A stretch of 64,000 nucleotides of DNA, taken from contig JAEUJY010000165.1 of assembly GCA_016794525.1 (NCBI GenBank), positions 124,001 through 188,000 of the forward strand. The letters are read 5' to 3'. The notes under the pieces were generated by a model. It was not told where the DNA came from. It saw only the letters and a program-made list of their open reading frames with translations, and searched no databases. Position numbers and translations under genes: made by a program. The DNA comes from Myxococcales bacterium. Its GTDB lineage: Bacteria; Myxococcota_A; Polyangia; Haliangiales; Haliangiaceae. This document shows positions 1 through 40,116 of the stretch, one piece after another. Each line of letters opens with the position of its first letter. The first letter of the stretch is position 1.

Positions 1-2751
<2,751 letters not shown>

Positions 2752-3148
2752 GGACGTGGGTGCCTCTTCCGGGTTGGAGTCGTACGTGACGAGTGCGGAG
2801 CGGTGCGAACGAGCGCCGACCGAAAACGCGGCGACCGCCCCAAGCCCGATCACTCTCGCGAGTGCCGAGCGGGCGGTTCACCGGGTTGGTCAGAAGGCGA
2901 TCGTCAAGACTGCCGAGGAGCTGAGGAGCGAGAACGTAGAGCGACGTGCGTGCCGACGAGCGACACGGACACGGCAACGGGGCGAGGAGATAGACTCCGG
3001 GCCTCGGCGCCGCGTGCGTATAGCACGGAACGCGGAGGAAGTGGCAACTGCGGCATGCAAGCCGCCGTGCCAACTCCGTCCCCCAGCGTAAGCGGCCTGA
3101 TTCGCAGGAAAACCCGCGAATTTGACGCGCTACGCCGGGATCGTCGAA
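2752..3148 (-). other. rplL-rpoB intergenic leader
   Basis: No credible gene is seen in this 397-nt spacer. On the minus strand there is a possible promoter with TTGCCA at 3042-3047 and TATACG at 3017-3022 (19-nt spacing, weak). A bulged hairpin at 2844-2874 pairs GCCCG with CGGGC and CACTC with GAGTG, in the rpoB leader. A small inverted repeat ATTCGC/GCGAAT at 3100-3121 lies just after rplL. Attenuation between rplL and rpoB is known in many bacteria. That these hairpins do it here is inference. Confidence 0.4.
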
Positions 3149-3529
3149 CTACTTGATCTCGACCTCGGCGCCGGCGTCCTTGAGCTTCTTGGCGATGTCC
3201 TCGGCCTCGGCCTTGGGCACGCCGGCCTTGACGTCCTTCGGGGCGCCGTCGACCAGGTCCTTGGCGTCCTTCAGGCCCAGGCCGGTGATCTCGCGGACGA
3301 CCTTGATGACGTTGATCGGAGCCGCGCCCTTGCCCTTGAGGACGACGGTGAACTCGGTCTTCTCCTCGGCGGCCGGCTTGGCGTCGCCAGCCGGAGCCGC
3401 GGGACCCGCGACGGCGACCGGAGCGGCCTTGACGCCCCACTTGTCCTCGAGGGCCTTGGTGAGGTTGACGATGTCCATGACCGTGAGCGTGCTGAGGTAG
3501 TCGATGACCTGATCTTGCGTGAGCGACAT
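3149..3529 (-). CDS. rplL: 50S ribosomal protein L7/L12
   Basis: This 126-residue protein is the flexible stalk protein that recruits translation GTPases to the ribosome. The N-terminal dimerisation helices ([20 protein letters not shown]) are followed by an Ala/Pro-rich hinge near residues 38-55. The globular C-terminal domain carries [20 protein letters not shown] and the [15 protein letters not shown] factor-binding loop. Length is typical. It lies downstream of rplJ, as expected since L10 anchors L7/L12 dimers, but 175 nt away instead of nearly adjacent. Confidence 0.97.
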
Positions 3530-4229: not shown

Positions 4230-4285
4230 GGTGGTTGTCCGTGTTTCGTTGAGCCGGCGGGGCCGGCGAGTGGCTGGGAAAGCGA

Positions 4286-4316
4286 CGACCCCTCGTCTGG
4301 GGAGAGCGAGGGGTCG
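4286..4316 (-). promoter_or_regulatory. Hairpin in the rplJ leader (possible L10-type leader element)
   Basis: CGACCCCTCG at 4286-4295 pairs perfectly with CGAGGGGTCG at 4307-4316 around an 11-nt loop, 57 nt upstream of the rplJ start. The position between rplA and rplJ is where L10 autoregulatory leaders are found in other bacteria. I cannot verify the kink-turn of the known L10 leader family, so it could equally be a terminator after rplA. Confidence 0.45.
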
Positions 4317-4436
4317 GCGGCACCGGATGGATCCGGCGACGGGGCGACTCGACTCGGTCTCCGCGGGACTTCGGGGCGACTGCCCTGCCCGCTTCTGCGA
4401 CGTCGTGAGGTCGTATGGTGCTAGCGAGTCGCTGGG

Positions 4437-5144
4437 CTACTCCGCGGCGGCGCCGGCGTAGGCGGCGGTGTCGACCTTGATGCCCGGGCCGTGGGTGGTC
4501 GAGATGGTGATCGACCGCATGTAGGTGCCCTTGGCCGTCGACGGCTTGAGCTTGACCAGCTGGTCGAGCAGCGCGCGGAGGTTGACCGCGAGCGCCTCGG
4601 GCTTGAACGAGGCCTTGCCGATCGGGGTCTGGATGACGCCCGCCTTCTCGACGCGGAACTCGACGCGGCCGGCCTTGAGCTCCTTGACCGCCTTGGTGAT
4701 GTCGGCGGTGACCGTGCCGACCTTCGGGTTCGGCATCAGGCCGCGCGGACCGAGGACGCGGCCGATCTTACCGACCGAGACCATCATGTCCGGGGTCGCG
4801 ACCAGGGTGTCGAAGTCGAACCAGTTCTCGTCCTTGATCTTGTTGATGTACTCGTCGTTGCCGGCGTAGTCGGCACCCGCCTCGAGCGCATCCTTGACCT
4901 TGTCGGTCTTGCAGATGACGAGCACGCGCTTGGTCTTGCCGGTGCCCGAGGGCATGACGACCGAGCCGCGGACCATCTGGTCGGCGTACTTCGGGTTCAC
5001 GCCGAGGCGCACCGCGACGTCGACCGTCTCGTCCCACTTGGTCGAGATCTTGGTCTTGGGCAGGATCGCGCAGGCCTCGTCGACCGAGTACTTCTTGGTC
5101 GGGTCCCAGCCGGTGATCGCCTTCTTGTATTTCTTGCCAGCCAT
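4437..5144 (-). CDS. rplA: 50S ribosomal protein L1
   Basis: A 235-residue L1, of normal length, beginning [20 protein letters not shown]. It carries the family core: [20 protein letters not shown]-like residues (here [20 protein letters not shown]), the [14 protein letters not shown] loop and [13 protein letters not shown]1 binds 23S rRNA at the E-site stalk and commonly represses the rplK-rplA mRNA. A GGAGG Shine-Dalgarno lies 8 nt before the ATG. A 255-nt spacer with the dispersed hairpin pair separates it from rplK, which is unusual for these two genes. Confidence 0.97.
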
Positions 5145-5349
5145 CTGCTTGTCCTCCGGTGGTGCCTGGCTAGAGCGGCCCGCGTCGCGTCGTGCGTGCG
5201 GGCCTACCAGGCGGGGTCACTCGGTTATTGAAGTCGTTACCGAACCGTTTCGAAGTCCCAGCTGAACGTTCTGGGCCGTTTCGGGAGCGGCCGACGTCCC
5301 CGTCGACCGTTGGTGGAACATGGAGGCCGGTGAGCCCCTGCCTCCACCT

Positions 5350-27691: not shown

Positions 27692-30247
27692 ATGCGCCAC
27701 CTGGAGATCTTGGCCCCCGCCGGCAGCGCCGCGTCGCTGGCCGCCGCCCTCGCCGCCGGCGCCGACGCGGTGTACTTCGGCACCGACGAGGGCTGGAACG
27801 CGCGCGCCCGCGCCGACAACTTCCGCGTCGACGATCTGCCCGCGGTGATGCGCCAGATCCACCGCGCCGGGGCCCGCGGCTACCTGACGCTCAACACGCT
27901 GGTGTTCGAGCCCGAGCTGGGCGCGGTCGAGCGGATCGTGCGCGCCGCGGCGGCGGCCGGCGTCGACGCGCTGATCGTCCAGGATCCGGCGGTGGCGCTG
28001 ATCGCACGAGCGCTGTGCCCGCAGCTCGACCTCCACGCGTCGACCCAGATGACGCTGTCGGCGCCGGCCGCCGCCGCGGTGGCGGCGCGGCTCGGCATCT
28101 CGCGCATCGTCGTGCCGCGCGAGCTGTCGGTCGACGAGATCCGCGCGTTCGCCGCGGCGTCGCCGATCGAGCTCGAGGTGTTCATCCACGGCGCGCTGTG
28201 CGTGTCGTGGAGCGGCCAGTGCCTGACCTCGGAGTCGTGGGGCGGCCGCTCGGCCAACCGCGGCCAGTGCGCGCAGAGCTGCCGCCTGCCCTACGACCTG
28301 GTGGTCGACGGCGCGCCCCGCGACCTCGGCGAGGTGCGCTACCTGCTGTCGCCGCAGGACCTGGCCGGCGCGACCGCGGTGCCGGCGCTGGCCGAGGCCG
28401 GCGTCGCGTGCCTGAAGATCGAGGGCCGGCAGAAGGGCCCGGCGTACGTCGCGGCGACCGTGGCCGGCTACCGCGCGGCGCGCGACGCGGCGGCGGCCGG
28501 CGTCGACGATCCGCGGGCCCGCGCCGACGAGCTGGCGGCGATGGGCCTGGCCTACACCCGCGGCCCGTCGCTCGGCTTCCTCGGCGGCGTCGATCACCAG
28601 CGGCTGGTGGTCGGGCGCGCGCCCAAGCACCGCGGCCTGTACCTCGGGCGCGTCGTGGCGGTCGGCGCGCGCACCGTCGAGGTGCGCCGCGACGACGACG
28701 GCCGGCCGTGGACCGGCGGCCTGGGGCTGGGCGCCGAGCGGCCGGCGGCGCCGACCGACGCGCGCGCGGCGGTGGCCGAGGCGGTCGCGACGCCGCTGGT
28801 GCCGACCGCCGGGCTCGGCGTGGTGTTCGACGACGGCCACCCCGAGGCCGACGAGCAAGGCGGCCCGATCTTCGCGGTCGACGAGGTCGGGCCCGATCGC
28901 TGGCTGCTCGGGTTCGGCACGCCGGGCCCCGACCTCGGGCGGGTCGCGGTCGGCGCGCGGGTGTGGGTGACGTCGGATCCGGCGCAGCACCGCGCCGCCG
29001 AGCGGCTGGTGGCGTCGACGCCCGACGGGCGGATCGCGCTGGCGCTGGTGGTGGCCGGCGCCGACGGCGCGCCGCTGACGGTCACGGCGACCGCGAGCGG
29101 CGCCACCGCCACCGCGACCTCGGCGCCGCTGACCGCGGCCCGCGGCCACGGCCTCGACGCCGCGCTGCTGGCCGACAAGCTGGGCGCGCTGGGGGGTACC
29201 CGCTTTCACCTGGCCGGCCTCGACGCCAGCGGCCTCGCGCCGGGGCTGCACCTGCCGGTGTCGGCGCTCAAGGAGCTGCGGCGCCAGCTGGTGGCGCAGC
29301 TCGACGCGGCGCTCGACCGCGTCGATCGCGACGTGCGCGCGACGTCGGTGGTCAGCGAGGTGCGCGCCGCGGCGTGGGCCGCGCAGCCGGCGCCAGCGCC
29401 GGTCGCACCGACGGTGGTGCCGCTGTGCCGCCAGGACGATCAGCTCGACGCGGTGCTGGCGGCCGGCGCGCCCGAGGTCGAGCTGGACTGGATGGAGCTG
29501 GTCGGGCTGGCGCGGGCGGTGGCCCGGGCCCGCGCCGCCGGCGCACGCGTGGTGGTCGCGACGCCGCGCGTGATCAAGCCCGGCGAGGAGCGCATCCTCG
29601 AGCACCTGCTGCGCCTCGAGCCCGACGCGGTGCTGGTGCGCTCGTGGGCGGCCACCGCGGCGCTGGCCGGCCGCGGCCCGGCGCTGCACGGCGACTTCTC
29701 GCTCAACGTGACCAACAGCGTCAGCGCCGGCTTCGCGCTGGGGCTGGGGCTCGCGACCATCACCGCGGCCCACGATCTCGACGCCACCCAGCTGGCGGCG
29801 CTGCTGGCGGCGGCGCCGGTCGGGCGCTTCGCGGTCACGGCCCACCACCACATCCCCAGCTTCCACACCGAGCACTGCGTCTACGCGCACCTCCTGTCGG
29901 GCGGTCGCGACTACCGCAGCTGCGGGCGGCCGTGCGAGGCGCACCAGGTCGCGCTGCGCGATCGCACCGGCCTGGTGCACCCGGTCGTCGTCGACGTCGG
30001 CTGCCGCAACACCGTCTTCGGCGCGCAGGCCCAGAGCGCCGCCGGGCTGGTGAAGGACCTGGTCGCGCAGGGCGTCGCGCGGCTGCGCGTCGAGTTCGTG
30101 CGCGAGGCCGGCGCCGACGCGGCCCGGGTGTGGGGCGCCTACCGCGACCTGGCGGCGAACCGGGCCAGCGTCGCCGAGGTGGTCAAGACCGCGGCGGCGC
30201 TCGAGCAGTTCGGCGTCACCCGCGGCACGATGCGCGTGATCAGTTAG
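27692..30247 (+). CDS. U32 family protein (RlhA-like, probable tRNA/rRNA hydroxylation)
   Basis: An 851-residue U32 protein. N-terminal TIM-barrel-like half: EILAPAGSAASLAAAL, ADAVYFGTDEGWNARARADN, LHASTQMTL and the U32 signature ELEVFIHGALCVSWSGQC. A Cys cluster (GQC, CAQSC) and LKIEGRQKGPAYVA follow. The C-terminal region carries HTEHCVYAHLLS, SCGRPCEAH and VDVGCRNTVF, conserved Cys of the longer members. E. coli RlhA and TrhP, both U32 proteins, make hydroxylated C2501 of 23S rRNA and hydroxyuridine in tRNA; the long architecture is closest to RlhA. Its 3' end overlaps the convergent ferritin-like gene by 8 nt. Confidence 0.8.
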   Translation: MRHLEILAPAGSAASLAAALAAGADAVYFGTDEGWNARARADNFRVDDLPAVMRQIHRAGARGYLTLNTLVFEPELGAVERIVRAAAAAGVDALIVQDPAVALIARALCPQLDLHASTQMTLSAPAAAAVAARLGISRIVVPRELSVDEIRAFAAASPIELEVFIHGALCVSWSGQCLTSESWGGRSANRGQCAQSCRLPYDLVVDGAPRDLGEVRYLLSPQDLAGATAVPALAEAGVACLKIEGRQKGPAYVAATVAGYRAARDAAAAGVDDPRARADELAAMGLAYTRGPSLGFLGGVDHQRLVVGRAPKHRGLYLGRVVAVGARTVEVRRDDDGRPWTGGLGLGAERPAAPTDARAAVAEAVATPLVPTAGLGVVFDDGHPEADEQGGPIFAVDEVGPDRWLLGFGTPGPDLGRVAVGARVWVTSDPAQHRAAERLVASTPDGRIALALVVAGADGAPLTVTATASGATATATSAPLTAARGHGLDAALLADKLGALGGTRFHLAGLDASGLAPGLHLPVSALKELRRQLVAQLDAALDRVDRDVRATSVVSEVRAAAWAAQPAPAPVAPTVVPLCRQDDQLDAVLAAGAPEVELDWMELVGLARAVARARAAGARVVVATPRVIKPGEERILEHLLRLEPDAVLVRSWAATAALAGRGPALHGDFSLNVTNSVSAGFALGLGLATITAAHDLDATQLAALLAAAPVGRFAVTAHHHIPSFHTEHCVYAHLLSGGRDYRSCGRPCEAHQVALRDRTGLVHPVVVDVGCRNTVFGAQAQSAAGLVKDLVAQGVARLRVEFVREAGADAARVWGAYRDLAANRASVAEVVKTAAALEQFGVTRGTMRVIS

Positions 30248-31073
30248 CCGCCGCGGCCATCGCCGGGGCCGCCGCCGTCGCGCTGGTGTCGAGCCCGACC
30301 CGGCGCAGCCAGCGCAGGCCGGGCTGCACGCCCTCGAGGCCGGGCAGCGCGCTCAGGCGCTCGTCGGCGTGCCCGAACGTCGCGACCGGATCGTTGAACA
30401 GGTTCTGGACGAAGGCGCGCTGCTCGGCGGGCGACTTGACCCCCGAGCCGGCCGGGTTCCAGTTGCGCTCGAGGATCGCGCGCACGACCCGCTGCGCGAC
30501 CCGATCGCCCTCGAGGCGCTCGCGCGCCGAGGCCAGGTAGAACGCGTAGTGGCGGCGCTCCTGCTTGCCGATGCGGCGCGCCAGCTCGGCGAGGACCGGG
30601 TTCTTGGTGTTGTTCACCAGCGACTCGTAGCCCTGGCAGGTCAGGAGCTCCTGCGACGCGCCCCACGTCATCCACAGCGCGACGAAGGTCTGCGGCATGG
30701 CCTTGGCCAGGCTGACCTGGAACGCGTCCTCGAGGCGGGCCCGCAGCCGAGCCGACGACCGCAGCTTGGCGGCGCGGCTGCCGGCGGGTGGCACCGGACA
30801 GCCGCACTCGGCCATCAGCTTCGAGATCGCCTGGGCGTGGAAGTGCTCCTCGTAGTTCCACATCGTCAGGAACGAGATCAGGTCCGGGTCGCGGGAGATC
30901 TGGAGCTTGGCGACCTCGAGGAAGTAGAAGAACGTCTGGCTCTCGACGTCGGCGAAGAACTCGAGGTTGGCGCGCTCGCGCTCGGACAGCCCGGCCGCGC
31001 GGGCCGCGGCCCAGTCGAGATCATCGATGCTGACCTTCTGCGAGACGGCGAGATGCTGCTGGATGTCGGGCAC
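30240..31073 (-). CDS. Ferritin-like di-iron protein
   Basis: A 277-residue protein from GTG 31073, which has GAGGAG 5 nt upstream. A four-helix ferritin-like domain spans about residues 30-215: ERANLEFFADVESQTFFYFL supplies the first Glu, WNYEEHFHAQAISKLM the ExxH pair, and IGKQERRHYAFYLASA the second. These are candidate di-iron ligands, as in acyl-ACP desaturase-like or rubrerythrin-like proteins. The residues TCQGYESLVNNTKNP between helices are typical of the former. An oxidase or oxygen-sensing role is possible but the substrate is unknown. It is the only gene of its transcript and is divergent from the regulator operon. Confidence 0.7.
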   Translation of the reverse strand: MPDIQQHLAVSQKVSIDDLDWAAARAAGLSERERANLEFFADVESQTFFYFLEVAKLQISRDPDLISFLTMWNYEEHFHAQAISKLMAECGCPVPPAGSRAAKLRSSARLRARLEDAFQVSLAKAMPQTFVALWMTWGASQELLTCQGYESLVNNTKNPVLAELARRIGKQERRHYAFYLASARERLEGDRVAQRVVRAILERNWNPAGSGVKSPAEQRAFVQNLFNDPVATFGHADERLSALPGLEGVQPGLRWLRRVGLDTSATAAAPAMAAAAN

Positions 31074-31451
31074 GGTTGCTCCTCGGTGACGATGCGGCGC
31101 GGACGGGCGTCCACCCCCGGGTACCGGTGGGCGACTCTGATAGCACAGCCGCGCCCCTCCGTTACGAAGCGACGCCCACAGAGGATCACCCCTCCGACGT
31201 GAACCCAGATCTCGGGTCATCCGACCACCGCCGCCATCCCCGCACTCCGAGTGAAGTCGCGGGCATTGGCGCGCCTACCACTGCTGGGGTGTAGGTCGGG
31301 CTCGCCCCAGCGCCTGCGGAGATCTCGCATGACCGGAGCGGGGTGATTGTCGACTCCACACGACCATGGTTAGGTGTGAGGTAGCACCGTCGAGACGATC
31401 GGAATCGTTCGGGTTTGACACGGGCCACGAAGCGCGGTTATTGAGAAAAAC
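31074..31451. other. Divergent regulatory region with operator-like inverted repeats
   Basis: This 378-nt gap lies between the ferritin-like gene (minus) and the signalling operon (plus). Near the operon promoter are two inverted repeats: CACAC(31357-31361)/GTGTG(31374-31378) around the palindrome ACCATGGT, and ACGAT(31395-31399)/ATCGT(31404-31408), which ends 7 nt before the -35. They are candidate sites for the HTH-receiver protein encoded first in the operon. No gene is seen. Confidence 0.5.
31415..31443 (+). promoter_or_regulatory. Promoter of the five-gene signalling operon
   Basis: TTGACA (31415-31420), exactly 17 nt, TTATTG (31438-31443). The GTG start follows after 8 nt, so the transcript would be leaderless or nearly so, and there is no Shine-Dalgarno. 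Confidence 0.75.
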
Positions 31452-32051
31452 GTGATCCCGGAAACCATCGATCCTGATTCGCTGCTCACCTCGACCCAGG
31501 TCGGGAACCTGCTGCAGGTCAACCCCAGCTCGGTGAAGAAGTGGGTGAACGACGGCCACATCATAGCATTCAGGACTCCCGGGGGACACCGTCGGATCCG
31601 GGCGCTGGACCTGGTGGCGTTCCTCGACGCCCACAAGATCCCGGTGCCGCGCCAGCTGCAGAACGCCGGCAAGCGCCGGATCGTGGCGGTCGACGACGAC
31701 ATCACCCAGCTGCGGGCGCTCGGGCGCTCGCTCAAGCGCTGGAGCGACAAGCTCGACGTGACGCTGGTCGACAACGGGGTCGACGCGCTGCTCGAGGTCG
31801 GCGCGTCGCGCCCCCACGGATTGTTGATCGACGTGTTCCTGCCGGGCATCGATGGCATCGAGGTCTGCCGCCGCCTCAAGGCGAACGCGGCGACCAAGGA
31901 CATCGCCATCATCGTCACGAGCGGCCGACTCACCAGCGAGCTCGAACAGGCGGCGCGTGGCGCTGGAGCTCGCCGTGTCCTTCGCAAACCGGTCGACGTC
32001 ACGGCCGTGATCGAAGAGCTCGGGATAGCTGCGCCTGCACCGAGCAGATAG
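31452..32051 (+). CDS. HTH (excisionase/BldC-like) - receiver domain regulator
   Basis: A 199-residue fusion in an order opposite to most response regulators: DNA-binding first. Residues 10-60 form a MerR/excisionase-type winged HTH (LLTSTQVGNLLQVNPSSVKK, WVNDGHIIAFRTPGGHRRI). Residues 76-195 are a receiver: acidic pocket VDDD, phospho-acceptor Asp127 in LLIDVFLPGIDG, Ser in VTSGR and Lys in LRKPVD. It probably binds the inverted repeats just upstream and is phosphorylated by the kinases in the same operon. It is separated from the next gene by 7 nt. Confidence 0.88.
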   Translation: MIPETIDPDSLLTSTQVGNLLQVNPSSVKKWVNDGHIIAFRTPGGHRRIRALDLVAFLDAHKIPVPRQLQNAGKRRIVAVDDDITQLRALGRSLKRWSDKLDVTLVDNGVDALLEVGASRPHGLLIDVFLPGIDGIEVCRRLKANAATKDIAIIVTSGRLTSELEQAARGAGARRVLRKPVDVTAVIEELGIAAPAPSR

Positions 32052-32058
32052 GACCCCA

Positions 32059-33783
32059 TTGTCGACGAGCGACCTGCCGGCCTCCACTCCCTCCCCGTCC
32101 CCCGCGGACGCCGCGTCGCCTGACCGTCGCACCGCCGACGTCTTGATCGAGGTGCTGGCCCGCGCCGGCGTCGATCTCGTCTTCGGGCTCCCCGGCGGGC
32201 CCATCTCGCCGATCCACGACGCCCTGCTGGCCCGCGGCGGCATCCGGCACGTCCAGACCCGCCACGAGAGCGGCGCGCTGTTCGCCGCCGCTGGCTACGC
32301 CCACGCCACCGGCCGCCTCGGCGTCGCGGTCGTGACGTCGGGGCCCGGCATCCTCAACGCGATGACCGGCCTGGCCTCGGCCCACTGCGACAGCCTGCCG
32401 GTGCTGCTGCTGGTCGGCGAGGTGCCGCGGCGGGTCCACGGCAAGGGCGCGCTGCAGGACGGCTCGAGCCACGGCCTCAACGTCGTCGGCATGACCCGCC
32501 ACGTCACCAAGATGGCGGTCGAGCTGACCGAGCCGGCCAACGCGCCGATGGTGCTGCACCGGGCGATCGCGACGGCGCTGTCGGGGCGCCGCGGCCCGGT
32601 GGTCGTGACGATCCCGATGGACGTCGCCAACGCGTCGATGGTGCCGTCGGTGGTCACCGCCCAGGTCGGGCTCGAGTTCGCCGTCGACCCGCGCGCGATC
32701 GACGAGATCGCGGCGCTCTTGTCGGTGGCGGCGCGGCCGCTGATCCTGGCCGGCTCGGGCGTGCGCGGCGGCGGCGCGCCGGCGGCGCTGCGCGCGCTGG
32801 CCGATCAGTACCAGTGCCCGGTGGCCACGACGCCCAAGGCCAAGGGCGTCTTCCCCGAGGATCACCCGATGTCGCTCGGCGTCTTCGGGCTGGGCGGCCA
32901 CCCGTCGGTGCGGGCCTACGCCGAGCGCGGGCTCGACGTGCTGATCGCGGTCGGGTCGAGCCTGGGCGACGTCGCGACCGACGGCTGGTCGCCGCTGCTC
33001 AAGGCGCGCAAGGCGTTCATCCACGTCGACATCGACGGCCAGCAGATCGGCCGCAGCTACCAGCCGACCCACGCGCTGGTGGCGCCGGCGCGGGCGTTCC
33101 TGCAGGCGATGGTCGAGCGCGTCCCGCCGCTGGTGCCGCGGCTGGTCGCGGGCGGCGTGGTCCGCCACCGGCTGCCGACGTCGGCGCTCGACCGGCTGGC
33201 GCCGCACGACGCGATCGCCGAGATCCAGACGATCCTCCCGCGCGACACGATCTACACCGTCGACTCGGGCGATCACTTCCTGTTCGCGACCCACTACCTC
33301 GACCTCGCGCACCCCGACAGCTTCATCGTCATGACCGGCCTGGGCTCGATGGGCCAGAGCATCGGCGGCGCGATCGGCGCCAAGCTGGCCCGCCCCGACC
33401 GGCCGGTCGCGGCGATCTGCGGCGACGGCTGCTTCGCGATGAACGGCTTCGAGGTGGCGACCGCCGCCGCCGAGGGGATCCCGATCGTGCTGTTCGTCTT
33501 CAACGACCGCCGCCTCGGCATGGTCGAGCACGGCCACCGCACGGTCTACGGGCGCGAGGCCAGCTACCCGATCCAGATGGACGTCGGCAGCCTGGCCCAC
33601 GGCCTCGGCGCGGCGTTCTACCGCGTCGATCGCCCGGGCCAGCTCGCCGCGCTGCGCGACGCGCTGCGCGCCCCGACCGGGCCGATCGTGGTCGACGTGC
33701 TGATCGATCCCGACGTCCGCATGCCGACGCGCGATCGGATGATCACGATCGACGCCACGCGTAGCATCAAGCTGGTCAACTAG
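32059..33783 (+). CDS. ThDP-dependent enzyme, acetolactate-synthase-like
   Basis: A 574-residue thiamine-diphosphate enzyme with the three domains of the acetohydroxyacid synthase/pyruvate oxidase family. N-terminal domain: LVFGLPGGPISPIHDALL and the catalytic Glu near residue 70 in HESGALFAAAGYA. The C-terminal ThDP motif CGDGCFAMNGFEVATAAAEG runs to FNDRRLGM at about 453-490. No regulatory subunit gene is nearby, so a role in branched-chain amino acid synthesis is doubtful. Location between a regulator and a KAS III-like gene points to making an acyloin or similar small molecule, which is inference. The start is TTG 32059; no better start codon is near. Confidence 0.85.
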   Translation: MSTSDLPASTPSPSPADAASPDRRTADVLIEVLARAGVDLVFGLPGGPISPIHDALLARGGIRHVQTRHESGALFAAAGYAHATGRLGVAVVTSGPGILNAMTGLASAHCDSLPVLLLVGEVPRRVHGKGALQDGSSHGLNVVGMTRHVTKMAVELTEPANAPMVLHRAIATALSGRRGPVVVTIPMDVANASMVPSVVTAQVGLEFAVDPRAIDEIAALLSVAARPLILAGSGVRGGGAPAALRALADQYQCPVATTPKAKGVFPEDHPMSLGVFGLGGHPSVRAYAERGLDVLIAVGSSLGDVATDGWSPLLKARKAFIHVDIDGQQIGRSYQPTHALVAPARAFLQAMVERVPPLVPRLVAGGVVRHRLPTSALDRLAPHDAIAEIQTILPRDTIYTVDSGDHFLFATHYLDLAHPDSFIVMTGLGSMGQSIGGAIGAKLARPDRPVAAICGDGCFAMNGFEVATAAAEGIPIVLFVFNDRRLGMVEHGHRTVYGREASYPIQMDVGSLAHGLGAAFYRVDRPGQLAALRDALRAPTGPIVVDVLIDPDVRMPTRDRMITIDATRSIKLVN

Positions 33784-33826
33784 ACGACGGCGGGGCGATC
33801 GCCTCCGCCTCCCGCGAGCCCTGCCC

Positions 33827-34915
33827 ATGCGCCCAACTCCTGCGTCGCCTGCCGTCGGCATCCTCGGCCTCGGCGTCCACCTCCCCCCCGAGATCCGCAC
33901 CAACGCGTGGTGGCCGCGCGACGCCGTAGACCGCTGGCGTGAACGCATGGCGCTGCGCGCCACCCTGCCCGACCTGCCGCCCGACGCGCCCGCGGGCGTG
34001 CGCGCCACGATCGACGCGATGGCCCGCTACGCAGACGATCCGTTCCGGGGCGCCGTCACCCGCCGGGTGATGACCCCGCCGGCGACGACGACCGACATGG
34101 AGGCGGCGGCCGCGCGCGCAGCCCTCGAGGATGCCGGGATCGCCGCGACCGACGTCGACGTGCTCCTGACGCAGACCCCGGTGCCGGAGCGGCTGATGGT
34201 CAACGAGGCGTGCCCGACGCACCACGCGCTGGGGCTCCGGCGGAGCTGCCTCGCGTTCGGGACCGAGGCCGCTTGCAACGGGTTCGCCGTCCACGCCGAG
34301 CTGGCCGCCGCGCTGATCGCGGCCGGGCGCGCTCGCCACGTGCTGAGCGTGCACTCGTCGGCGATCACCCGCGTCCACGGGCCGACCGAGCCGCACTCGG
34401 CGTGGTGGGGCGACGGCGCCGCGGCCGTGCTGTGGGGACCGGTCCGCGCCGGCCGGGGCCTGCTGGCGACGCAGCACAACGTCGACGGTACGGCGTGCGA
34501 CGCGCTGGTGCTCGGCGTGCCCGAGCGGCGGTGGTGGGAGGCGGGCGAGGTGACGACGCACGCCGTGGATCGCGAGCACACCCGGGCGATGCTCCTCACG
34601 TTGATCGAGCGCGGCCGGGCCGCGATCGCGGCGGCGCTGGCAGCGTCCGAGGTCGCCCCTGCGGACGTGCGCTTCTTTGCGCCGCACCAGGGTACGATCT
34701 GGCTCGGTGAGACCTGCCGGGTCCACGCCGGGTTGAGCGCCGCCCGCACCATCACCACGTTCCCCGAGACGGCGAACATGAACAGCGTCAACGTCCCGTA
34801 CGTCCTGTGGCGCGGTCGCGAGGCGGGCTGGCTCGGCGATGACGACGTCGCGGTCACGTTCGCCGGCGGGCTGGGCGAGACGTGGTCGAGCACCGTGATC
34901 CGCTGGGGGCGCTGA
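33827..34915 (+). CDS. 3-oxoacyl-ACP synthase III (KAS III/FabH)-like
   Basis: A 362-residue thiolase-fold enzyme. The N-terminal half has GILGLGVHLPPEIRTNAWW and DVDVLLTQTPVPERL. The catalytic Cys150 is in FGTEAACNGFAVHAELA, His287 in FFAPHQGTIWL, and Asn in NMNSVNVPYVLW. The triad is present, so it should condense an acyl group, but the TEAACNG and NMNSVN contexts differ from housekeeping FabH (usually xxACSGF and NTSAASVP). It is therefore a secondary-metabolite type. No ACP or other fatty-acid genes are adjacent. It lies 43 nt after the ThDP gene and 1 nt before the hybrid kinase start, so it is part of one operon. Confidence 0.83.
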   Translation: MRPTPASPAVGILGLGVHLPPEIRTNAWWPRDAVDRWRERMALRATLPDLPPDAPAGVRATIDAMARYADDPFRGAVTRRVMTPPATTTDMEAAAARAALEDAGIAATDVDVLLTQTPVPERLMVNEACPTHHALGLRRSCLAFGTEAACNGFAVHAELAAALIAAGRARHVLSVHSSAITRVHGPTEPHSAWWGDGAAAVLWGPVRAGRGLLATQHNVDGTACDALVLGVPERRWWEAGEVTTHAVDREHTRAMLLTLIERGRAAIAAALAASEVAPADVRFFAPHQGTIWLGETCRVHAGLSAARTITTFPETANMNSVNVPYVLWRGREAGWLGDDDVAVTFAGGLGETWSSTVIRWGR

Positions 34916-34916
34916 C

Positions 34917-37886
34917 GTGCGCGAGGTCTCCTGTCGGTTCTTCGAGACCCCGCTGCGCGTCCTCCACGACGGGCGCCGTCCGGCGTCGCTGCTCACCGAG
35001 AACACGAGCTGCGACCTGGCGGTGCTGCGCGACAAGGACGAGCGGATCAGCTGGAGCGAGTTCCAGCGGATCGCCGCCAACATGCGGCAGATCTGGACTG
35101 AGGACGAACTGCGCCACCTCGGCGAGCTGTCGATCGAGAGCCCGCTGGTGCGCTTCATCGGCGTGATCGCGCGGCTGCGCTTCTCGGTCGGGCAGTTCTA
35201 CCAGTGGGTCGCGGGGCCCAAGGGCATGGCGAGCCAGATGTTCTCGTGCCTCGCGACGTCGTGCCGGCTCGATGGCGCCGGGCGGGCCACCGTCGAGCTG
35301 CGCATGCTGCCGGGCTACGCGGCGAGCCGTGAGCTGTGGCTCGTGTCTGAGGGCACCTACGCGGCGATGCCCCAGATGTTGGGGGCGCCCCGTGCGACGA
35401 CGCGTGCCAGTTACGGCGATGGCTGGGTCCGCTACGACGTGCGCTTCACCGAGCCCCGCGGCCCGCTGGCGTTCGCGCGTCGCGCGGTGACCTGGCCGTT
35501 CACGGTCCGCCAGGCCGCGGAGGAGCTGACCGAGGCGCACCAGACGCTGCTCGATCGCTACGGCGAGCTCGAGCAGACGCGGGCGCAGCTGGCGCAGCAA
35601 GCGCGGAGCCTGACGGCCTCCAACCGGATCGCGCGGCTGGCGCTCGAGGACCTCGACACCGCAGGCGCCTGCGCCGCGATCGCGGCGACCTTGATCGCCG
35701 ACTCGGGCGCGACCCACGTCATCTTCGAGGTCGTCGATCACCCACCGATCGAGGCCGGGGCGCGGGCCACCGACCGGCCGCACCACCGCTACACGCTCCA
35801 GACCAACGTCGGCCAGCTGGGCGAGCTGGTGCTGCAGTCCGACGAGGACACCGCCACCCAGGTCGAGCCGTTGGTCCCGACGATCGCGCTGGTCGTCCAG
35901 AAGGCGATCGATCAGCAGGCGCTGGCCGCCTACCAGCGTGACCTCGAGCGCCGGGTCGCGGAGCGCACCGCGGACCTGACCCAGGCCCGCGACGATCTGT
36001 CGGCGACGGTGGTGCACCTCGAGGCCGCCCAGGCGTCGCGCGAGAAGCTGTTCCACAACATCAGCCACGAGATCCGGACGCCGCTGTCGCTGGTGCTGCT
36101 GCTGGTCGACGGCGTGCTGACCCACCACCGCGCCGAGCTGACCGAGCGCGCCGTCGGGCAGATGAACGCGATCACCGTCAGCACCCGCAAGCTGGTGCGC
36201 CTGGTCGACGAGCTGCTGTTGCTGGCGTCGGGGCAGGAGCGCAACCTGGTGGTCCGCCCCGAGCCGATCGAGCTGGCGCAGGCGCTGCCCGAGCTGCTCG
36301 CCGGCTGGACGCTGGCCGCCCACGAGGCCGGCATCGCGCTCGACGTCGCCGCCGACGGCGCCGGCCCGATCATGGCCGACCCCGCCGCGTTCGAGCGCGT
36401 GCTCGCCAACCTCTTGTCGAACGCGATCAAGTTCACGCCGCGCGGCGGCCACGTCGCGGTGACGGTCACGCGCCAGGCCGCGGCGACCCAGGTGGCGGTC
36501 ACCGACGACGGCCCCGGCATCGACGCCGGGTTCCGCGAGCGGATCTTCGAGCGCTTCGAGCAGGGCGAGGCCGGCCGGCGGCTGCGCACCGGCTCCGGCA
36601 TCGGGCTGTCGATCGCGCGCGCGCTGGTGCGCGCGCACGGCGGCGACCTCGTGCTGGAGACCAACCCCGCGGGCCACGGCTGCCGGTTCGTGTTCACGCT
36701 GCCGAACGCCGACGCCGCGACGGTGAGCAGCGTCACGCCGGGCCGGCTCCGGCCCAGCGACTACGGCATCGTCCCGGCGCGCGCATCGTCGACCAGCCAC
36801 CCGCCCGGCATCTCGCAGGGCCACATCCTGGTCGCCGAGGACGACGTCGCGCTGGCCGAGGCGATCCGGCAGCTGCTGGCCGAGGACTACACCGTCACGC
36901 TGGCCCACGACGGCGCCGAGGCGCTGACCGCCGCCAGCCAGCGTCCGCCCGACCTGCTGATCACCGACATCGAGATGCCCGGCATGGACGGCCTCGAGCT
37001 GGCGCGCCAGGTCCAGGCGATCCCCGGCGAGGGCGCGATGCCGGTGCTGGTGATGTCGGCGCGGGCGCAGCTCGGCGATCGCCTCGCAGGGTTCGACGCC
37101 GGCGCGGTCGACTACCTGGTCAAGCCGTTCGATCCCGCCGAGCTGCGCGCCCGGGTCCGGGCCCAGCTCGCCTACCGCGGCCTGGCGCAGCGCCTGTACC
37201 GCACCGAGAAGCTCGCCGCGATGGGCGCGCTGTCCGCGGGGCTCGCCCACGAGCTGCGCAACCCGGCCAACGGCATCGTCAACGCGATCGCGCCGCTGCG
37301 CGAGCTGTTGCCGCCGGCCGCGCTCGACCCCGAGACCGGCGTCGGCGAGCTGATCGACGTCGTCGAGCAGTGCGCCGAGCAGGTGGCCTACGTGTCGCGC
37401 CAGCTGCTCGGGTTCCGGCGCTCCGGCGATCTGGATCTGCGGCCGACGCCGCTGCCGGAGGTGGTCAGCCGCGCCGTCTCCAACGCCGGCGCGGCGCTGG
37501 TCGACGTCGAGCTGGCGACCGACCTGGCCTATACCGGCACGATCCGGTGCGCGGCCCCGCTGCTGACCCAGGTCATGGTCAACCTGCTCGAGAACGCCGC
37601 CCAGGCGGCCGGCCGCGGCGGGTGGGTGCGGATCCGCAGCGAGCTCGACGGTGGGCAGGTCCTGCTCCTCATATCCGACAGCGGCCCCGGTGTACCCCCT
37701 GGCCTCCAGGAGAAGATCTTCGAGCCGTTCTTCACCACCAAGCCCCCCGGCCAGGGCACCGGCCTCGGACTGGCAACGGCGCGTGACCTGATCACCCGGC
37801 ATGGGGGTACACTCGACCTGCGGCTCCGTGAGGGTCGCACGACGTTCGTGATCGCCCTGCCCATCCCGAGCGAGGCCCGCCGATGA
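34917..37886 (+). CDS. Hybrid histidine kinase: kinase-receiver-kinase
   Basis: A 989-residue soluble sensor kinase. Residues 1-190 are an unrecognised N-terminal domain (VSCRFFETPLRVLHDGRRPA, WTEDELRHLGELSIESPLVR, GQFYQWVAGPKGMASQMFSC), not PAS or GAF. Coiled coil 205-240, a GAF-like segment 240-340, a second coiled coil, then HisKA with His384 in HNISHEIRTP, HATPase at 440-600 (NLLSNAIKFTP, DDGPGID, GSGIGLSIA). A receiver follows with Asp684 in LITDIEMPGMDG, then a second HisKA (His778 in GLAHELRNPANG) and HATPase (NLLENAAQA, GTGLGLATA). No membrane segment, so it senses an intracellular signal. GTG start 1 nt after the KAS III stop codon. Confidence 0.9.
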   Translation: MREVSCRFFETPLRVLHDGRRPASLLTENTSCDLAVLRDKDERISWSEFQRIAANMRQIWTEDELRHLGELSIESPLVRFIGVIARLRFSVGQFYQWVAGPKGMASQMFSCLATSCRLDGAGRATVELRMLPGYAASRELWLVSEGTYAAMPQMLGAPRATTRASYGDGWVRYDVRFTEPRGPLAFARRAVTWPFTVRQAAEELTEAHQTLLDRYGELEQTRAQLAQQARSLTASNRIARLALEDLDTAGACAAIAATLIADSGATHVIFEVVDHPPIEAGARATDRPHHRYTLQTNVGQLGELVLQSDEDTATQVEPLVPTIALVVQKAIDQQALAAYQRDLERRVAERTADLTQARDDLSATVVHLEAAQASREKLFHNISHEIRTPLSLVLLLVDGVLTHHRAELTERAVGQMNAITVSTRKLVRLVDELLLLASGQERNLVVRPEPIELAQALPELLAGWTLAAHEAGIALDVAADGAGPIMADPAAFERVLANLLSNAIKFTPRGGHVAVTVTRQAAATQVAVTDDGPGIDAGFRERIFERFEQGEAGRRLRTGSGIGLSIARALVRAHGGDLVLETNPAGHGCRFVFTLPNADAATVSSVTPGRLRPSDYGIVPARASSTSHPPGISQGHILVAEDDVALAEAIRQLLAEDYTVTLAHDGAEALTAASQRPPDLLITDIEMPGMDGLELARQVQAIPGEGAMPVLVMSARAQLGDRLAGFDAGAVDYLVKPFDPAELRARVRAQLAYRGLAQRLYRTEKLAAMGALSAGLAHELRNPANGIVNAIAPLRELLPPAALDPETGVGELIDVVEQCAEQVAYVSRQLLGFRRSGDLDLRPTPLPEVVSRAVSNAGAALVDVELATDLAYTGTIRCAAPLLTQVMVNLLENAAQAAGRGGWVRIRSELDGGQVLLLISDSGPGVPPGLQEKIFEPFFTTKPPGQGTGLGLATARDLITRHGGTLDLRLREGRTTFVIALPIPSEARR

Positions 37887-39058
37887 CGCCCCCCATCGAA
37901 ACGACCGGACCGCTGGTGCTGTACGTCGACGACGAACGCCCCAACCGCGTGGTGTTCGAGAAGTCGTTCGCCGGCAAGTTCCGCATCCGCACCGCGTGCG
38001 ACGGCGCCGAGGCGCTGGCCGTGCTGGCCAGCGAGCCGGTCGCGGTGCTGCTGACCGACCAGCGGATGCCGGGCATGAGCGGCGACGAGCTGCTGCGCGT
38101 GGTCAAGCGCGACCACGCCTCGGTGGTGCGCGTCGTCATCACCGCGTACTCCGACATCGAGCCGATCCTGGCGGCGATCAACGAGGGCCTCGTGGCCCGC
38201 TACATCGTCAAGCCGTGGAACCGCGAGGAGCTCGAGCAGCTGCTGCGCTGGGCGATCGCGGCGTGGGAGTTCTCGCGCGACTCGGCGGCGCTGCAGCACC
38301 GGCTGCTCGAGACCGAGCGGCTGGCGACGCTGGGCTCGATCGTCGGCTCGGTCGTCCACGATCTCAACCAGCCGCTGGCCAGCATGCTGATGAACTGCGA
38401 CCGGCTGATGTACCTGGTGCAGGCGGTGCCGATCGTGCGCGGCCTGATGGAGCGCGCCGATCTGTCGGAGAAGGAGCGGCACCACCTCGACGACCTGCTC
38501 ACCGACCTGCCGGAGATCGTCGACGAGTTCCGCCAGTCGACCGAGCACATGCGCGGCATGACCGTCGAGCTCCACGAGTTCGTGCGCGGCCAGCGCCGCG
38601 AGGTCGAGAACGCCACCGCGCCGGTGCCGGTGATCAAGCACGCGCTCGGCGTGTGCCAGGACGTGGCGGTGCGGGCCCGCGGCTTCCTGCGCTACGACGG
38701 CCCCGAGACGCTGCCGCGGGTGCGGATGAGCTCGACCGAGCTGACCCAGGTGCTGATCAACCTCGTGACCAACGCCGCCCAGGCGCTGGGCGATCGCCCC
38801 GGCGGCGGCGGCAACGTCGTCATCAGCGCCGACCCCGGCGCCGAGCAGATCCGCTTCAGCATCAGCGACAACGGCGGCGGCATCCCGGCCGACGTGCTGT
38901 CCAAGATCGGCACCCCGTTCTTCACGACCAAGCGCCAGGGCACCGGCCTGGGCGTCGCGCAGTGCCAGCGGCTGGTCGGCAAGGCCGGCGGCTCGTTCCG
39001 CATCGCCAGCGAGATCGGCAAGGGCACGACCGTGACGTTCACGCTGCCGACCCGGTGA
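37883..39058 (+). CDS. Receiver-histidine kinase
   Basis: A 391-residue protein with an N-terminal receiver (residues 12-130; pocket YVDDE, Asp59 in LLTDQRMPGMSGDE, VVITAYSD, Lys in RYIVKPW). A kinase follows: coiled coil, phospho-acceptor His159 in GSVVHDLNQPLASM, HATPase near 270-390 (VLINLVTNAAQALGD, SDNGGGIP, GTGLGVAQ). The HDLNQPL form belongs to the HisKA branch where the DHp has an inserted loop (about 170-240 here). It is the last gene of the operon, overlapping the hybrid kinase by 4 nt (ATGA). It may receive phosphate from the hybrid kinase and pass it back to the HTH-receiver protein. Confidence 0.9.
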   Translation: MTPPIETTGPLVLYVDDERPNRVVFEKSFAGKFRIRTACDGAEALAVLASEPVAVLLTDQRMPGMSGDELLRVVKRDHASVVRVVITAYSDIEPILAAINEGLVARYIVKPWNREELEQLLRWAIAAWEFSRDSAALQHRLLETERLATLGSIVGSVVHDLNQPLASMLMNCDRLMYLVQAVPIVRGLMERADLSEKERHHLDDLLTDLPEIVDEFRQSTEHMRGMTVELHEFVRGQRREVENATAPVPVIKHALGVCQDVAVRARGFLRYDGPETLPRVRMSSTELTQVLINLVTNAAQALGDRPGGGGNVVISADPGAEQIRFSISDNGGGIPADVLSKIGTPFFTTKRQGTGLGVAQCQRLVGKAGGSFRIASEIGKGTTVTFTLPTR

Positions 39059-39105
39059 GCGACCGCCGCGGCGTCCGGAAACTGCGCCCGCGCCGCCCGA
39101 CCTGG

Positions 39106-39111
39106 TAAAAG
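39106..39111 (+). promoter_or_regulatory. -10-like TAAAAG before the GT2 gene
   Basis: TAAAAG ends 6 nt before the GTG at 39118, the same spacing as at 48367 and 58536, though it lacks the final T. Weak on its own. Confidence 0.3.
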
Positions 39112-39117
39112 CGGGGG

Positions 39118-40116
39118 GTGCGCGCGTCCGACCTGGCCCCGCCGCCGCTGCCCCGCGGGCTGTCGGTGGTCATCCCCTGCTACCGCAGCGAGGGATCGAT
39201 CGGCCTGGTGGTCGAGGCGCTCAAGCCGGTGCTCGCGGCCCACGCGCCGGCGTTCGAGCTGATCCTGATCGACGACGCGTCGCCCGACGGCACCGGCCGC
39301 GCGATCGCGGCGCTGGCGGCCCAGCACCCCGAGGTCACGGCGATCTCGCTGTCGCGCAACTACGGCCAGCACGCGGCGCTGTTGTGCGGCATCCGGCTGG
39401 CGCGCTTCGACGTCGTCGTGACGATGGACGACGACCTGCAGCACCCGCCGGCCGAGCTGCCCAAGCTGCTGGCGGCGCTGACCGACGACGTCGACGTGGT
39501 CTACGGCAGCCCGGCGGCCGAGCCCCACGGCCTGTTCCGCGGCGTCGCGTCGCGGGTCACCAAGTGGGTGCTGCAAGGCGCGATGGGCGCGGCGACCGCC
39601 GGCAAGGCGTCGGCGTGGCGGGCGTTCCGGACCCGGCTGCGCGACGCGTTCACCGAGTTCCGCGGCGCGTTCGTGTCGATCGACGTGCTGCTCACCTGGG
39701 GCACGCAGCGCTTCACCCACGTCACCGTGCGCCACGACGCGCGGACGATCGGCACGTCGAACTACACCTTCCGCAAGCTGGTCACCCACGCGGTCAACAT
39801 GATGACCGGCTTCTCGACGATCCCGCTGCAGCTGGCGAGCTGGATCGGCTTCCTCTTGACCGGCTTCGGCGTGCTGATCTTCGCGTACGTCGTCGTCGTG
39901 GCGGTGGTCGAGGGCGGCAGCCCGCCGGGGTTCCCGTTCCTGGCCTGCCTGATCGCGGTGTTCTCGGGCGCGCAGCTCTTGTGCCTCGGCATCATCGGCG
40001 AGTACCTCGGCCGCGCGCACTTCAGGTTGCTCGACCGGCCGTCGTATCAGGTGCGATCGGCGGTGGTCGGCGCGGCGCGCGCGGGCAGCGGCGACGCCAG
40101 CGTCGACGCGTCGTAG
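39118..40116 (+). CDS. Glycosyltransferase family 2 with C-terminal membrane anchor
   Basis: A 332-residue enzyme. GT-A fold: LSVVIPCYRSEGSIGLVVEA, DDASPDGTG, the SLSRNYGQHAALLCGIRL segment and the metal DxD in VTMDDDLQHPP. Residues 235-290 contain two membrane helices (LASWIGFLLTGFGVLIFAYV; LACLIAVFSGAQLLCLGIIG), as in polyprenyl-phosphate sugar transferases of the ArnC/GtrB/DPM type. It probably transfers a sugar from a nucleotide donor to undecaprenyl phosphate, feeding a membrane GT39-like enzyme such as the one at 44013. GTG start. Its last 70 nt overlap the convergent acetyltransferase gene. Confidence 0.87.
   Translation: MRASDLAPPPLPRGLSVVIPCYRSEGSIGLVVEALKPVLAAHAPAFELILIDDASPDGTGRAIAALAAQHPEVTAISLSRNYGQHAALLCGIRLARFDVVVTMDDDLQHPPAELPKLLAALTDDVDVVYGSPAAEPHGLFRGVASRVTKWVLQGAMGAATAGKASAWRAFRTRLRDAFTEFRGAFVSIDVLLTWGTQRFTHVTVRHDARTIGTSNYTFRKLVTHAVNMMTGFSTIPLQLASWIGFLLTGFGVLIFAYVVVVAVVEGGSPPGFPFLACLIAVFSGAQLLCLGIIGEYLGRAHFRLLDRPSYQVRSAVVGAARAGSGDASVDAS

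Follow-up and report, generated by a model that had tools for sequence, protein, structure and literature searches.

Alpha-hydroxyketone-type signals are used by the Legionella Lqs and Vibrio Cqs systems, in which a histidine kinase sensor is encoded beside the synthase, and the synthases themselves, LqsA and CqsA, are PLP enzymes. In Xenorhabdus, the neighbouring xenocyloin genes xclA and xclB encode an acyloin-type ThDP synthase and an acylating enzyme of the KAS III-like type, and so resemble the operon described here in the kinds of enzyme; no kinases are known to be encoded with them. In Ralstonia, the phcBSRQ operon joins a synthase, the methyltransferase PhcB, to a sensor kinase and to PhcR, a soluble protein composed of a receiver and a histidine kinase, with no DNA-binding domain (PMC8578825). 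In carbazole biosynthesis, a ThDP enzyme and a KAS III-like enzyme (CqsB3/CqsB1 or NzsH/NzsJ) act as a C-C bond-forming pair, and a review also reports such clusters from Sorangium (PMC7466098).

The operon analysed here lies in a window of 64,000 nucleotides, the whole stretch of DNA under study, which covers positions 124001-188000 of contig C41 in a 9.8 Mb genome; of the relatives with a name, L033, a Kofleriaceae MAG, is the nearest to this genome. We regard the operon as a strong candidate for a hitherto undescribed system of chemical signalling. By analogy, its plan is the one already known from the Phc, Lqs and Cqs systems: enzymes that would serve as signal synthase, a sensor kinase and a receiver-kinase are encoded in one operon, and the receiver-kinase P0005 resembles PhcR. 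What differs are the enzymes and the sensor. No synthase homologous to the methyltransferase PhcB or to the PLP enzymes LqsA and CqsA is found in the operon, which has two C-C bond-forming enzymes, a ThDP and a KAS III-like enzyme, instead; unlike phcBSRQ, it also encodes a soluble H-NOX-like sensor, a hybrid with two kinases and a receiver protein that has a DNA-binding domain. The likeness to Lqs and Cqs lies in the proposed signal type and in the kinase beside the synthase, whereas those systems have PLP enzymes and other sensors. Compared with the Streptomyces carbazole genes, none of the five proteins is recognised by Pfam as the cyclase CqsB2/NzsI, an aminotransferase and a prenyltransferase are also lacking, and the partners of the enzymes are a phosphorelay.

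Layout and control region of the operon

Five open reading frames, all on the plus strand between 31452 and 39058, were found where the preliminary description had placed them, with intergenic spacings of 7, 43, 1 and -4 nt in gene order. Pfam agrees with its reading of an HTH-receiver, a ThDP enzyme, a KAS III-like enzyme, a kinase-receiver-kinase and a receiver-kinase, the domains being, in gene order, HTH_17 and Response_reg; TPP_enzyme N/M/C; ACP_syn_III(+C); HisKA/HATPase-receiver-HATPase; and receiver-HATPase. The expected phospho-acceptor and active-site residues are complete in these proteins, including those claimed for the two enzymes (Glu70, GDG455-457 and Asn482 in P0002; the triad of P0003), and neither P0004 nor P0005 has a 19-residue segment above the usual transmembrane threshold, in keeping with the claim that the kinases are cytosolic. 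The five-gene operon contains no exporter gene.

Table 1. Positions of the operon genes, control elements and related features (in the window unless a locus is named).
Feature	Position	Strand	Remark
Divergent gene for a ferritin-like/acyl-desaturase-like protein	30240..31220	-	beside the operon only within the genus
Candidate operator, degenerate inverted repeat ATGACCG-N5-GGGTGAT	31329..31347	.	seen on alignment of the sequences upstream of six same-genus loci
Candidate promoter TTGACA-N18-TATTGA, stopping ~7 nt short of the GTG start	31415..31452	+	conserved block in same-genus alignment
P0001, HTH_17 (BldC/MerR-like) and receiver, output regulator, Asp127	31452..32051	+	
P0002, ThDP enzyme	32059..33783	+	scores under the NCBIfam threshold of biosynthetic acetolactate synthase
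P0003, KAS III-like enzyme, Cys150-His287-Asn317	33827..34915	+	predicted to couple an acyl thioester with the product of P0002
P0004, soluble hybrid kinase: sensor domain, linker, HisKA-HATPase (His384), receiver (Asp684), HisKA-HATPase (His778)	34917..37886	+	
P0004 N-terminal sensor domain, residues ~1-183	34917..35465	+	H-NOX/VirS-N/Bet3-like fold without heme ligand
P0005, soluble receiver-kinase (Asp59, His159)	37883..39058	+	layout as in Ralstonia PhcR
Receiver fused to ThDP N-terminus	L067:9233-11368; L127:5207-7261; L206:7985-10174	-	

The spacing points to a single promoter for all five genes. A consensus scan of 31200-39300 gave no sigma-70 promoter and no intrinsic terminator above threshold; the conserved block before the GTG start may be a leaderless promoter. 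The inverted repeat further upstream is a candidate operator for P0001. Its perfect form, ATCACCC-N5-GGGTGAT, occurs in same-genus relatives, with an exact copy upstream of the operon in G002, G003 and G005, and the window copy, which has two mismatches, is the sole match at up to two mismatches in the 64 kb (0.15 expected). A regulon of this repeat was rejected, the remaining exact matches lying in unrelated loci. P0001 scored 50.9 bits against the NCBIfam model HTH_BldC, for which the cut-off is 77. The divergent ferritin-like/desaturase-like neighbour is probably outside the operon unit.

The enzyme pair and the sensor domain

Among solved structures, the best matches of P0002 were BbmA (E 2.8e-101) and CsmA (E 7e-83), above acetolactate synthases; with these nearest relatives and its catalytic residues in place, P0002 has the features of an alpha-hydroxy-beta-keto acid synthase. 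It belongs to the acetolactate-synthase-like superfamily, as would be expected if the operon merely supplied branched chains through a second acetolactate synthase and an enzyme of fatty-acid initiation that happen to lie beside the kinases. Such a housekeeping role is highly improbable: both enzymes score far under the family cut-offs (P0002, 360.6 bits against 538.35 for TIGR00118, IlvB; P0003, 126.5 against 249 for KAS III), the genome's own ilvB adjoins ilvC away from the operon (G000:C160; ilvC and ilvD assigned by eye from translation), and the order conserved in many genomes already refutes coincidence. The TIGR00118 score and the separate ilv locus rule out P0002 as the housekeeping acetolactate synthase, and with it the function in amino-acid synthesis that the preliminary description had named as fatal to its proposal.

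P0003 carries the Cys-His-Asn triad of KAS III-like condensing enzymes such as CqsB1 and NzsJ. In relatives the triad is variable, and beyond the near relatives of the window the third residue changes from N to S, T, H or Y; nearly all members, receiver fusions included, retain the Glu, GDG and Asn of the ThDP enzyme. Very probably, as judged from the carbazole pair on which we modelled the chemistry, the two enzymes make a hydrophobic molecule of small size. With an acyl group on its Cys150, the KAS III-like enzyme would decarboxylate and acylate the ThDP product, giving an alpha-hydroxy-1,3-diketone or a rearranged O-acyl acyloin. Some relatives have P450 genes inside or beside the unit (L067, L070, L132 and L133) and a methyltransferase gene (L070 and L132; tailoring genes in L067 and L070 assigned by eye), whose enzymes would tailor the product further.

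The N-terminal ~200 aa of P0004 are a separate unnamed domain, absent from the preliminary description. The first ~183 residues have no Pfam family match, and weak matches to PF12625, an AraC-type ligand domain, were seen in 3 of 15 orthologues. The AlphaFold model of the domain is confident (pLDDT 86), and in Foldseek and VIA-align comparisons H-NOX ranked top (Z 13.5, rmsd 3.5, 167 residues aligned; Foldseek E 6e-6). The VirS N-terminus (Z 11.1, rmsd 3.9, 173 aligned) and the Bet3 family (Z about 9), one member of which is palmitate-bound, also matched. The overall fold is shared with H-NOX gas sensors and VirS; unlike H-NOX, the domain has neither a conserved His nor the YxSxR motif for heme contacts in 15 members, and heme gas sensing is unsupported for want of both. 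In VirS, a drug ligand sits in an enclosed, mostly hydrophobic cavity (PMC13234193). On the strength of the model, it is plausible that the hybrid kinase has a ligand-binding domain, and a hydrophobic small molecule is the natural guess for its ligand.

The domain is not exclusive to this operon, being common in orphan kinases of the phylum that lack the enzymes. The genome of the window encodes a distant copy in an orphan hybrid kinase (L126:7710-9896, G000:C102), beside genes that look by eye like phosphate transport. A stand-alone sensor-domain protein (L167:2-1894, minus strand) is divergent from a gene that by eye resembles an AONS/CqsA-type PLP enzyme (2135-3208, plus strand).

Within the operon family, the KAS III-like enzyme and the sensor domain diverge fastest, with mean identities of 46% and 40%, respectively, against 53-58% for the other parts. 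Such a pattern would follow from a joint change of molecule and sensor, and may have other causes.

Conservation of gene order and the receiver-ThDP fusion

Relatives and 379 genomes from across the phylum were searched with the KAS III-like protein; further searches used the sensor domain and the ThDP enzyme, and genes were then called in the neighbourhoods. The full order of HTH-receiver, ThDP enzyme, KAS III, hybrid kinase and receiver-kinase was found at 14 myxobacterial loci from five families (f1, f3, f14, f23 and f70): the window, L033, L061, L063, L064, L066, L034, L080, L208, L210, L204, L205, L212 and L070, at about 37-89% identity. L034 and L211 are one contig and were counted once; in L212 the KAS III and sensor parts were recovered by tblastn only, and in L070 two tailoring genes separate ThDP from KAS III. 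Loci L062, L065, L133, L203 and L207 are cut off at contig ends. The main groups of the ThDP and KAS III trees are largely the same. Since the same order recurs in so many relatives, the adjacency is not due to chance, and its retention in 14 loci from five families marks the five-gene operon, on comparative grounds, as an old unit.

The coupling of enzymes to kinases put forward in the preliminary description is thus real and old; the search for the pair beside kinases bore it out at these 14 loci and went against it at loci such as L202, L089, L096 and L098, where the pair occurs without kinases and is therefore a biosynthetic module by itself. In the wider clade, many myxobacteria have the ThDP-KAS III pair with other neighbours, and the single-contig genome G545 (L202) has a pair close in sequence with no adjoining kinase. 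Beside more distant pairs, kinases were found at 9 of 19 loci, compared with about 9% expected (p 1.5e-5); with relatives collapsed by eye, the count is 5 of 13 (p 0.004, or 0.13 if the background is set at its upper bound), and this enrichment is only suggestive.

At five loci, a gene of TIGR02265, a myxobacterial family of unknown function, stands directly upstream of the pair, and a kinase gene lies downstream (L083:7350-8018, L084:1911-2588, L085:11972-12664, L092:5126-5770 and L095:6789-7430). H-NOX came near the top for the TIGR02265 model, as for the sensor domain, but the TIGR02265 model is poor (pLDDT 71, rmsd 11-12, Z about 7), so that a shared fold is no more than a possibility, and hhalign found no sequence link between these proteins and the N-terminal domain of P0004.

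In six genomes of one genus (L067, L068, L069, L071, L127 and L206), a receiver that keeps its Asp runs in frame through a short linker into the ThDP enzyme, without the HTH. As the fusion is common to six assemblies, an assembly error is unlikely. The gene fusion speaks directly for joint action of enzyme and relay, and in this genus the relay presumably acts on the ThDP enzyme itself. Three of these loci have an additional hybrid kinase gene immediately upstream of the one for the receiver-ThDP protein (L069:12993-14546, L067:11452-12951 and L127:7351-8739).

The KAS III cysteine is replaced by Gly, Ala or Gln in four fusion loci, L070 and L073, and is also lost in L207, from another family, which makes seven cysteine-less loci; in L127 and L206 the KAS III gene is missing at this place and the rest is kept. 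KAS III, inactive-looking or absent in one sub-clade, is therefore not essential to every version, and the product or its maker differs between members. In L127 (G022), a 303-aa protein takes the place of KAS III (4285-5196, minus strand); it has no Pfam match and no convincing PDB match, and was not found in 52 other genomes.

These losses, the substitutions of the third catalytic residue and the receiver fused onto the ThDP enzyme would also suit a metabolic switch, in which 2-oxo acids and acyl thioesters are ligands of the ThDP and KAS III-like proteins, the relay sets flux or protein contacts, and no special molecule is made. We consider this improbable, given that the ThDP residues are kept even in the fusions, that the KAS III of the window has its full triad, and that tailoring enzymes imply a product.

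A proposed make-sense-respond module

Taken together, the fusion, the variation of KAS III, the tailoring genes and the fast divergence of KAS III and sensor suggest lineage-specific products, each with a sensor fitted to read it, around a constant core of ThDP enzyme and relay. By analogy and gene context, we give an even chance, more than to any other explanation, to the reading that the operon is self-sensing: its kinase would sense a small molecule made by its enzymes, and this molecule would feed back on the operon. The lack of an exporter gene, the orphan kinases that carry the sensor domain, the pairs without kinases and the loss of the KAS III cysteine or gene weigh against this reading.

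The operon could also be one for a secondary metabolite with cluster-situated regulation, in which the kinases would sense an outside or metabolic cue (a nutrient, a membrane-active compound or redox state) and switch on an antibiotic- or pigment-like product that is itself not sensed. The tailoring enzymes of relatives, the isolated pairs found in biosynthetic settings with an aminotransferase or P450 gene nearby (L089, L090 and L093) and the sensor domain in unrelated orphan kinases all suit this explanation. However, two kinases and a dedicated regulator, with no other large biosynthetic genes, would be heavy regulation for one product, and feedback accounts better for the fusion of a receiver to the ThDP enzyme and for KAS III and sensor diverging jointly; we hold this alternative to be unlikely, if still a serious contender.

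If the operon is self-sensing, it would be a self-contained module that makes, senses and responds. The part that reads the product, or its absence, would be the N-terminal domain of the soluble hybrid kinase, with its H-NOX fold and no heme. From the domain order, phosphate may pass from His384 to Asp684 and/or via the receiver-kinase to the HTH-receiver at Asp127, and the HTH-receiver would act on its own promoter region; in the fusion genus the relay presumably reaches the ThDP enzyme directly. The molecule would either leave the cell as a quorum-type signal or stay a private cue; for a sensor in the cytosol, the simplest case would be a signal that crosses membranes.

Myxobacteria with large genomes coordinate their behaviour in groups, and to our knowledge few self-made chemical signals with receptors have been described from them. 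The operon is a compact unit in which synthase, candidate receptor and regulator stand together, kept over several families. It might represent a new class of myxobacterial cell-cell signal, an alpha-hydroxy-1,3-diketone or O-acyl acyloin from ThDP and KAS III enzymes, read by a kinase with a heme-less H-NOX fold, the relay of some lineages controlling the synthase through a fused receiver; this fuller proposal is a tentative one, and we think it somewhat more likely to fail than to hold. Whatever the product, the receiver-ThDP fusion ties the enzyme to the kinases and, as far as a limited literature search goes, would be an undescribed route for phosphorelay control of a C-C bond-forming enzyme.
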